From contig JAIBJH010000023.1 of the NCBI GenBank assembly GCA_020029455.1, forward strand, positions 1-33,048: a DNA stretch of 33,048 bases, given 5' to 3'. Source of the stretch: Hyphomicrobiales bacterium. GTDB lineage: Bacteria > Pseudomonadota > Alphaproteobacteria > Rhizobiales > Aestuariivirgaceae. Shown here one piece after another: positions 25,824 to 28,153 of this stretch. The first letter of the stretch is position 1; every line of letters starts with the position of its first letter. The position numbers and the translations under genes were made by a program. The notes under the pieces are model-generated. The model did not search any database. It was not told the DNA's origin and saw only the letters and a program-made list of their open reading frames with translations.

Positions 25824-25924
25824 CATCCCGTGCAAGCGCAGCGCGACATGGGACACCCTGAACCGATTCCGCCGGCACTCTGCCCACTGAAATTCTTCAA
25901 TGGGTCCCGGCGTTCGCCGGGATG
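25824..25924. repeat. Dispersed palindromic repeat-like element, about 100 bp
   Basis: Ends form inverted CATCCCG / CGGGATG; contains TCCCGGCGTTCGCCGGGA hairpin (25905-25922). One frame reads MGPGVRRDD, a classic signature of proteobacterial intergenic repeats. Confidence 0.6.
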
Positions 25925-26037
25925 ACGACCAGGCAGAATCCGTTGCTCACGGACCCGTGAACTCTGTTGAAAAACTGTTTATGCGGATGGTGAAACTAAA
26001 GTGGGGGCTCAACCCGTCTCCAGTACATCGAGCGGTT

Positions 26038-26049
26038 GGAAATCATTCC
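26038..26049 (+). promoter_or_regulatory. Leader motif GGAAATCATTCC, copy 1
   Basis: Starts 41 nt upstream of the ATG; counterparts GGAAATGATTCC (26468) and GGAAATCAATCC (26912) each start 40 nt upstream of the next paralogs' ATGs. Confidence 0.5.
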
Positions 26050-26078
26050 GACACCGAAGCAAAAACTGGAGACCCCAA

Positions 26079-26312
26079 ATGAAGAAGATCGCCCTTTCCC
26101 TCATCGCCCTCGCCGCTGTTTCGACGGCTGCTCTGGCTGACCGCAGCCAGGACCTGCGCGACATCGACACCTATATGGGCAAGTTCGCCGATGAGTCCGT
26201 CAGCTTCGAGAAGCTGTCGATCCCGGCCAGCGAATGGCAGATCCTTTACGGCCGCTACGGCACCACAAAGGACCCCATGGAACTGCGCCGCTGGGACGAG
26301 AAGAACGGCTAA
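26079..26312 (+). CDS. Small secreted protein, paralog 1 (77 aa)
   Basis: MKKIALSLIALAAVSTAALA signal peptide; RSQDLRDIDTYMGKFADE; C-terminus KDPMELRRWDEKNG. Paralogous to the next two ORFs. Confidence 0.8.
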   Translation: MKKIALSLIALAAVSTAALADRSQDLRDIDTYMGKFADESVSFEKLSIPASEWQILYGRYGTTKDPMELRRWDEKNG

Positions 26313-26330
26313 TCTCAATAAATGATGCAC

Positions 26331-26360
26331 AAGGCCCGACCTGTATATAGGTCGGGCCTT
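26331..26360 (+). terminator. Terminator hairpin after paralog 1
   Basis: AAGGCCCGACCT - GTATAT - AGGTCGGGCCTT, perfect 12-bp stem. Confidence 0.75.
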
Positions 26361-26423
26361 CGCTTGTTCAATTTACCGCACGGTTTCGTGAATCTTAATG
26401 AACAGGAATTAATGGGAAAATCG

Positions 26424-26448
26424 CGAACCTTTTCGGGAGCAGTCCGTT
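26424..26448 (+). promoter_or_regulatory. ECF/EcfG-like promoter, paralog 2
   Basis: CGAAC-N16-CGTT, one mismatch to GGAAC-N16/17-CGTT; same architecture and position upstream of paralog 3. Confidence 0.5.
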
Positions 26449-26507
26449 TCCTTTGCGCAGTGCAGTTGGAAATGATTCCGACAGCACCAAACACATGGAG
26501 AATTGCC

Positions 26508-26747
26508 ATGAAAAAGTTCATTGTTTCCATGATCGCGCTGGCGGCGGTTTCGACCACCGCATATGCGGCGAACCGGAGCCAGGATCTGCGCGATACGGAC
26601 ACCTACATGGGCAAATTTGCCGATGAAGGCGTCATTGTAGAGCCGTTCGCGATTCCGGACGTCTCAACCGGTGAGTGGCTCTTTGCGGACGGTGAGTATG
26701 TGAAGGATCCTAACGAGATCCGCCGCCTTGAAGAGAAGAACGGTTAG
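26508..26747 (+). CDS. Small secreted protein, paralog 2 (79 aa)
   Basis: MKKFIVSMIALAAVSTTAYA signal peptide; NRSQDLRDTDTYMGKFADE; KDPNEIRRLEEKNG. Confidence 0.82.
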   Translation: MKKFIVSMIALAAVSTTAYAANRSQDLRDTDTYMGKFADEGVIVEPFAIPDVSTGEWLFADGEYVKDPNEIRRLEEKNG

Positions 26748-26772
26748 ACAGGAGCTTCTCTTTAAAACGGAT

Positions 26773-26803
26773 GAGGCCTGGCTCGAAAGAGTCAGGCCTC
26801 TTT
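26773..26803 (+). terminator. Terminator hairpin after paralog 2
   Basis: GAGGCCTGGCTC - GAAA - GAGTCAGGCCTC followed by TTT. Confidence 0.75.
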
Positions 26804-26868
26804 GTTCGTGAAAAATTTCAGCGCACGTTTTTGTGAGTCTTGATGAACATGAATTAATGCAGGAGTTG

Positions 26869-26893
26869 CGAACCATTCGCAGGCCGGTCCGTT
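26869..26893 (+). promoter_or_regulatory. ECF/EcfG-like promoter, paralog 3
   Basis: CGAAC-N16-CGTT, aligned with the paralog 2 promoter. Confidence 0.5.
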
Positions 26894-26951
26894 ACCCCGG
26901 CGTCACCGGCCGGAAATCAATCCAGCCGGTCAAGCATAATGGAGATGTGAC

Positions 26952-27203
26952 ATGAAAAAGTTCATCATTTCACTCGCCGCTCTTGCAGCCTTTTCAACAG
27001 CGGCGGCAGCCGCATCGTATGGCAACCGTGACGAGGTTTTCGATAGCTCCGCACCTTCTACCGTTGATGAAGCGGGTTTGGTGATGCCGAATGCGAATAC
27101 TGACGCGGTTGCCATCGCCGAGATTGGTGACGGCTGGCTGCTTGGCAGCGGTGAAAATGTGAAGGACCCGATGGAGGTCCGGCGTTTTGATGAGAAGAAC
27201 TAA
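26952..27203 (+). CDS. Small secreted protein, paralog 3 (83 aa), divergent
   Basis: MKKFIISLAALAAFSTAAAA signal peptide; C-terminus VKDPMEVRRFDEKN shared with paralogs 1 and 2. Confidence 0.78.
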   Translation: MKKFIISLAALAAFSTAAAAASYGNRDEVFDSSAPSTVDEAGLVMPNANTDAVAIAEIGDGWLLGSGENVKDPMEVRRFDEKN

Positions 27204-27221
27204 GGTTCTTCTTGCAAGACA

Positions 27222-27250
27222 GGCCCGGCTCGCAAGAGCCGGGCCCTTTA
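27222..27250. terminator. Terminator hairpin after paralog 3, possibly bidirectional with the metF-like gene
   Basis: GGCCCGGCTC - GCAA - GAGCCGGGCC followed by CTTTAATTT. Confidence 0.75.
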
Positions 27251-27253
27251 ATT

Positions 27254-28153
27254 TCAGCGCGGCAGCTTTGCCTTCATCCAGGCGGAGAGTTTGTCGAAAC
27301 CGCCAAAGGGATAAAGATGGGGCGCGGCAATGCCAAGTTCCGGCTTATCGAAATGCAGCGTGGCGAGTTGATCGACAAATTCCGTGGGCTCGGAGACCGT
27401 CAACAGTTTCGTCACGTTCAGTGCCTGCTTGCGAATGAAGCGGGCGGAATTCCCGACGCCGCACATGGCGGCATATTTGACCAGCGTCTTGATAGTGGCG
27501 GGACCCGGCACACCCACATGGATGGGTAGATCAATGCCTTCGGCGCGTAACATCGACGCCCAGTGAGCCAGCGGCCCGGCATCAAAGAGAAACTGCGTGG
27601 CGATGAAGCCCGCAATGCCATTGCTCTTGAGCCAGGCATCCTTCTCTTTGAGAGTTGTGAGAAGCATGGCCTCGCCATGTGTCTTGGTGATGTCGGGATT
27701 TCCTTCGGGATGGCCCGCCAAGCCAATGCGGCGAATGCCCACCTTCTGGAATGCGCCCGTCTTCAGAATCTGGATCGCCGCATGATATTGCCCGATGGGT
27801 TGCGGCGCGCCGCCGCCCAATGCCAACACATCGGTCACGCCCGCCTCACCCGCAAAAGCGGTAAGGCGCTCCGTCAGGTCATTCACATCACGCACAAAGC
27901 GCGCAGGGATATGAGGGATAGGATTTAGACCTGCCTTACGCAGGGCTGCCACCGCGGCAATCTGCCCGTGCAAATCTGCTGCATCGATCAGCGCCACGAA
28001 AACGGAAGCACCTTTCGGCAGCAGATCCACAATCAGCGGCACCTTGTCCACCTGCCTGCCAGTGATTTCGATGGAGGCCTTGGCGAGGAAAGCGCCCAGT
28101 GGATTTTCCATCAAGGCAGAGGCAACAGGGCTGAGGGAGGTGATGGCGTTCAT
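27254..28153 (-). CDS. Methylenetetrahydrofolate reductase family protein (MetF-like)
   Basis: SIEITGRQVDKV start, HIPARFVRDVNDLTERL, VLALGGGAPQPIGQY, RIGLAGHPEGNPDI, FIATQFLFDAGPLAHW, HVGVPGPATIKTLVKYA. Start at internal Met. Confidence 0.85.
   Translation of the reverse strand: MNAITSLSPVASALMENPLGAFLAKASIEITGRQVDKVPLIVDLLPKGASVFVALIDAADLHGQIAAVAALRKAGLNPIPHIPARFVRDVNDLTERLTAFAGEAGVTDVLALGGGAPQPIGQYHAAIQILKTGAFQKVGIRRIGLAGHPEGNPDITKTHGEAMLLTTLKEKDAWLKSNGIAGFIATQFLFDAGPLAHWASMLRAEGIDLPIHVGVPGPATIKTLVKYAAMCGVGNSARFIRKQALNVTKLLTVSEPTEFVDQLATLHFDKPELGIAAPHLYPFGGFDKLSAWMKAKLPR

Follow-up and report, generated by a model that had tools for sequence, protein, structure and literature searches.

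Three small genes arranged in tandem in the window (the whole stretch of 33,048 nucleotides that was analysed, contig C256 of genome G000, which is 2.93 Mb long and 83% complete) belong to an undescribed, fast-changing family that is restricted to Aestuariivirga (Hyphomicrobiales), a genus of soil and water bacteria. We tentatively propose that its members are Sec-exported, hydrophilic and largely disordered proteins, made from stand-alone genes that are duplicated and lost, and induced under certain conditions to act in the envelope. We regard this as the best of the explanations considered. Judged by sequence, the family is new to the libraries covered. Apart from signal-peptide noise, nothing was returned by sequence searches of Pfam, NCBIfam, PHROGs and PDB, and no characterised family matched, in agreement with the earlier note, where no family had been recognised. 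The family adds unnamed exported small proteins that are absent from these libraries.

The three genes, w1, w2 and w3 (Table 1), lie downstream of a gene for the alpha subunit of heterotetrameric sarcosine oxidase and a soxG-like gene, and upstream of a MetF-like gene on the minus strand. By a rule-based call, each product has an MKK-type signal peptide with an A-x-A site at residue 20, and none contains cysteine. The C-terminal ends of w1, w2 and w3 (KDPMELRRWDEKNG, KDPNEIRRLEEKNG and KDPMEVRRFDEKN, respectively) follow the pattern KDPxExRRxxEKN(G). The segment RSQDLRDxDTYMGKFADE is common to w1 and w2 and lost from w3, as had been read previously. When aligned without the signal peptide, the mature parts scored 160 (w1–w2), 65 (w1–w3) and 88 (w2–w3) against 22 ± 4, 21 ± 4 and 23 ± 5 for shuffled sequences, and 0 of 2000 shuffles scored as high in each case. 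The ORFs and these tests bear out the description in the earlier note of three small paralogs of 77–83 aa with an MKK-type signal peptide, no cysteine and a shared C-terminus. The dN/dS values of 0.15 (w1–w2) and 0.22 (w2–w3) indicate that the genes are coding and under purifying selection, and the dS near 2 among the window copies that the duplications are old. A fourth copy was observed on another contig of the same genome (G000:C110:21598-21840). At the DNA level, repeats of 44–80 nt in the array span gene starts, gene ends and parts of the intergenic DNA.

Every gene comes with a separate leader and a separate terminator hairpin, consistent with the previous proposal that these are separately transcribed duplicates, each with a terminator of its own. 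The 3' regions folded better than shuffled sequences (z = -4.7, -3.6 and -2.1 for w1, w2 and w3, respectively), and terminators are strong in most family members. The hairpin GUUGGAA-AUNA-UUCCGAC is common to the leaders of w1 and w2, and the leader stem of w3 shows a compensatory T-A to C-G change together with an extended outer stem. An ECF-like pattern, GAAC-N16-CGTT, was found three times in the window against 2.05 expected by chance; because chance gives about two per window, this promoter is kept only as a lead.

Table 1. Features of the array, in window coordinates
Feature	Position	Strand	Basis
Leader hairpin of w1 (GUUGGAA-AUCA-UUCCGAC)	26035..26052	+	isolated z -1.9; 75-nt leader z -4.7
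Copy 1 (w1), 77-aa exported protein, no Cys	26079..26312	+	signal-peptide, dN/dS and shuffle tests
Terminator hairpin after w1	26331..26360	+	inverted repeat I2, 15-nt arms, 93%
Weak ECF-like promoter match (GAAC-N16-CGTT) before w2, lead only	26425..26448	+	
Leader hairpin of w2, same core, stem extended	26460..26487	+	z -5.0
Copy 2 (w2), 79-aa exported protein, no Cys	26508..26747	+	signal-peptide, dN/dS and shuffle tests
Terminator hairpin after w2	26773..26800	+	hairpin and folding test
Weak ECF-like promoter match before w3, lead only	26870..26893	+	
Leader hairpin of w3, sequence changed, stem kept	26905..26930	+	sequence read by eye
Copy 3 (w3), 83-aa exported protein, no Cys; N-terminal motif diverged, C-terminus conserved	26952..27203	+	as for w1 and w2
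Terminator hairpin after w3	27222..27245	+	hairpin and folding test

Conservation beyond this genome had been set in advance as a test of the array, and we observed clear relatives in four or more further species of Aestuariivirga; loose profile matches occur in 20 of the 37 genus genomes. From single-sequence and profile searches, up to six copies per genome were counted within the genus (six in G005, five in G023, four in G016 and up to four in G009). Full-length members of the DLRD type are found in G000, G005, G009, G016 and G023. Outside the genus, none of 242 sampled genomes of the order has a family member, and when the conserved segments were used to scan 85,462 species genomes, every contig returned came from an Aestuariivirga genome. 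The contigs returned with family members include those of Aestuariivirga sp. C15, Rhizobiales sp. RBC017 and Rhodobiaceae Bin_29_15; RBC017 is listed as Aestuariivirga sp902826365 (PMC8555084). A plasmid or phage origin was also considered, and plasmid and phage searches with the family gave no match.

From the alignment, a family member is made up of a 20-aa signal peptide, an R-x-x-DLRDSDTYFGKYS segment, a variable linker rich in Ser, Thr and Asn, an A-[ILF]-A-V-like core and a charged C-terminal segment. The N-terminal segment after the cleavage site can be written as RxxDLRDSDTYFGKYS, and the C-terminal segment reads xFERMxxxxEEN-G in most members and KDPxExRRxDEKNG in the window copies. 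The R-x-x-DLRDSDTYFGKYS-like segment is present in w1 and w2 and absent from w3, which is nevertheless counted in the family because its C-terminus ties it to the other two. The mature part of w1 is homologous to those of w2, the C110 copy and the members in G005 and G016 (z 10–32). Across 12 pairs, dN/dS ranged from 0.15 to 0.49, which indicates purifying selection on the family, and in most of these pairs conservation is higher over the first 40 residues than over the remainder.

Genes of G036, G021 and G015 are similar to the family at their C-terminal end. In tests of the mature part only against the window copies, those of G036 and G015 were significant, and that of G021 could be connected only through G036. 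Genes of G001, G003, G008, G012 and G020 have only the signal peptide and the leader or slot in common with the family, and their mature parts, where tested, did not score above shuffles against the core family; their membership is possible, not proven. In G012, we also observed three or more additional small exported proteins (NDGGNDNSTFNDGQ...) encoded in a cluster (G012:C67:68155-70295; L039, L053), where the conserved leader precedes one gene and the mature part, when tested, did not align to the family. In G009 (L074:98-310 and L132), a subfamily ends in GDDLGLGGSNRR and has another N-terminal motif, RDVTTPYGAQDT, with the AFAVP core kept; one copy resides in the soxG–metF slot and one elsewhere.

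In other species, a subset of the family genes has a conserved leader, in which ATCGGGANCGCGATGANCGC comes after a promoter-like box (alignment A6, built from the upstream regions of slot and dispersed copies in ten genomes). No consensus pairs were predicted by RNAalifold for this alignment. The ATCGGGANCGCGATGANCGC hairpin was named by hand after that null result, and the pairing count is supporting rather than blind: 77% of cells pair against 62% ± 4 in shuffled alignments (0 of 500 as high), changes occur on both sides in three of the four pairs, and the signal became weaker when the partners were shifted. A sequence-only leader model, R1, was searched against the 37 genomes and recovered its training genes and three genes outside the training set, namely the first slot gene of G009:C213 (E 2.6e-5), the slot gene of G022 (E 0.004), not detected by the protein profile, and a gene in G009:C210 (E 0.012). 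The leader element is therefore a cheap handle for finding more such genes. Most other R1 matches fell within coding sequence, in a conserved stretch of rpsA or elsewhere; those in rpsA, seen in many species, were judged to be chance similarity. R1, which detects the promoter-like box and ATCGGGANCGCGATGANCGC in other species, gave no match at E <= 0.1 in the window's own genome. The window copies have diverged leaders that retain a hairpin, different from the ATCGGGANCGCGATGANCGC element of other species.

The soxG–metF gap was read, or partly read, in 31 genomes, including that of the window. It holds one to three family-type genes in ten of them (three in G000; two each in G003, G005, G009, G016 and G023; one each in G020, G021, G022 and G036), is empty, at 44–160 bp, in several (G011, G014, G019, G028, G029, G032 and G035), and in the remaining genomes is longer or occupied by other genes; in about two thirds of the genomes surveyed, no such gene is present there. 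In the G016 slot, an inserted 287-aa ORF splits the two copies. Most of the copies in G005 and G023, and half of those in G016, lie away from the slot. From the survey and the dispersed copies, we concluded that genes are repeatedly gained and lost at the gap, and that the position is not evidence of a role in sarcosine or betaine use; as one fixed chromosomal place, the gap offers a natural experiment in how genes arise and disappear. The slots of G008 (L090) and G021 (L072) contain an ORF of 130 aa that resembles, by eye, a VapC-like PIN-domain toxin, indicating that the slot takes up unrelated small genes. A short extragenic palindrome, GGGTCCCGGCGTTCGCCGGGATGAC, is present upstream of w1 (window 25901-25927) and was found again, in both orientations, in the soxG–metF gaps of G001, G010, G017 and G031; it resembles a REP-type repeat of the genus.

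A signal peptide of ~20 aa with an A-x-A-like site was called by rule in 30 of the 30 members examined, and cysteine is absent from w1–w3 and from 28 of the 30. The mature parts are about 40–73 aa long and hydrophilic (GRAVY -0.5 to -1.4), and those of the window copies are acidic (pI 4.1–4.7). AlphaFold2, run on a 25-row alignment (pLDDT 65, pTM 0.23), placed helices only in the signal peptide and at residues 50–57 and 66–76. Outside these predicted helices, either the protein would be disordered or an alignment of 25 rows is too shallow for AlphaFold2.

In the explanation that we prefer, each gene would be a compact unit of promoter, short hairpin leader, Shine-Dalgarno site, signal peptide, mature protein and intrinsic terminator, and the size of the family would be set by birth-and-death duplication at the recurrent soxG–metF site and at dispersed sites. 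Carrying a hairpin close to either end, the short mRNAs would be stable and abundant, and signal peptidase I would cleave the proteins, which would then stay in the envelope or be released. It is probable that they are abundant small envelope or secreted proteins. From their composition and the two conserved segments we infer a protective or surface-binding role, in which condition-induced envelope proteins would be hydrophilin-like or would bind a cell-surface partner via the DLRDSDTYFGKYS segment and the C-terminal helix, and the copies would diverge in the linker to suit different conditions. The hydrophilin-like protective role, in which the proteins would shield enzymes or membranes against drying or osmotic stress, is a guess from composition. 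The only hints of a stress link of the array are the weak ECF-like match, for which chance suffices, and the DUF1127 genes beside a few dispersed copies.

The main rival holds that the copies are precursors of secreted signalling or antimicrobial peptides, whose released part acts on neighbours and whose divergence is driven by specificity. The conserved N-terminal half with its faster-changing remainder, the multi-copy birth and death, the patchy distribution among species and the standalone transcription are all consistent with it. However, no gene for immunity, a dedicated transporter or a modifying enzyme was found to recur beside the copies in the neighbourhoods, and the sole MNIO neighbour has a cysteine-containing BufA-like precursor of its own. 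Moreover, dN/dS stays below 0.5 in all pairs, without whole-gene positive selection, and the mature parts, which are hydrophilic, are for the most part not cationic. With the lack of recurrent partner genes and of positive selection counting against it, we consider a peptide signal or bacteriocin unlikely. The earlier note had raised a link to methylamine/betaine nutrition. The proposal that the copies serve sarcosine, betaine or methylamine use together with the surrounding soxBDAG, metF and AraC-type regulator draws on the use of the slot in ten species. It fares poorly against the two thirds or so of surveyed genomes that have soxG and metF without such a gene between them, the many copies at unrelated places away from the sox genes, and the leader and terminator that each gene has for itself; we find it very improbable.

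Two further readings give the leader a larger part. It is rather doubtful that a genus-wide, lineage-specific exported-peptide system exists in which the leader RNA element and signal peptide are constant, the mature sequences diverge beyond recognition so that the cargo is free to vary, and the leader gates expression. Still less probable, in our opinion, is that the leader is a real control element that folds over the Shine-Dalgarno site, in a thermometer-like or ligand-controlled manner, and gates translation across the array. In w1 and the C110 copy this site is almost fully paired (0.00 unpaired; 0–3% of shuffles as low), its accessibility is low also in w2, G12, G20, G36 and G21, and the whole leader folds with z -4.7 in w1 and -5.2 in G21. 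Yet occlusion was rejected as a family rule, since the mean rank over 30 members was 0.40 against 0.5 by chance and several sites are open, and an Rfam search of the region gave nothing above chance and no Rfam family. The finding would matter more if the leader did gate translation or if the proteins acted outside the cell. The notion that the ORFs are non-genes, which resemble each other as a DNA repeat alone, could appeal to their shortness and to the 44–80 nt repeats; it is in effect refuted by codon selection, full-length homologs in other species, Shine-Dalgarno sites and terminators, and its likelihood is negligible.

Lineage-restricted, multi-copy small exported proteins are known in other lineages of Proteobacteria, for example DUF680 (PF05079) in Mesorhizobium. 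The DUF680 proteins are like the present family in size and signal peptide and, like it, are expanded within one lineage of the same order; their function is unknown. However, no family member matches Pfam at the cut-off, and the DUF680 profile had no match in 37 of the 37 genus genomes, the control genomes being silent too. The BufA-type bufferin precursors, which occur with MNIO enzymes (PF05114), are likewise small exported proteobacterial proteins, but they have conserved cysteines and a partner enzyme, and the family members lack both. An MNIO gene is absent beside the window copies and lies near one family copy only, in G005 (L060:6600-7878), where the copy is just upstream of a bufA-bufB-like pair with a bufA-like precursor gene and a gene of the MbnB/TglH/ChrH (MNIO) family. 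An MNIO link was rejected on this single case, in which the neighbour has its own precursor. NCBIfam NF050142 (PG1828 family lipoprotein) matched the family weakly over the signal peptide (E 0.0018-0.055, 14-18 bits against a cut-off of 50), whereas the family has no lipobox cysteine.

Finally, DUF1127 (PF06568) proteins, which are small and lineage-rich in alphaproteobacteria, are encoded directly downstream of some dispersed family copies. They differ in having neither a signal peptide nor any sequence relation to the family, and represent an adjoining gene of a separate family. Two of these neighbours (L023:1858-2076 and L058:6339-6563) were confirmed by Pfam, and those in L021, L019 and L009 were recognised by eye from their first residues.
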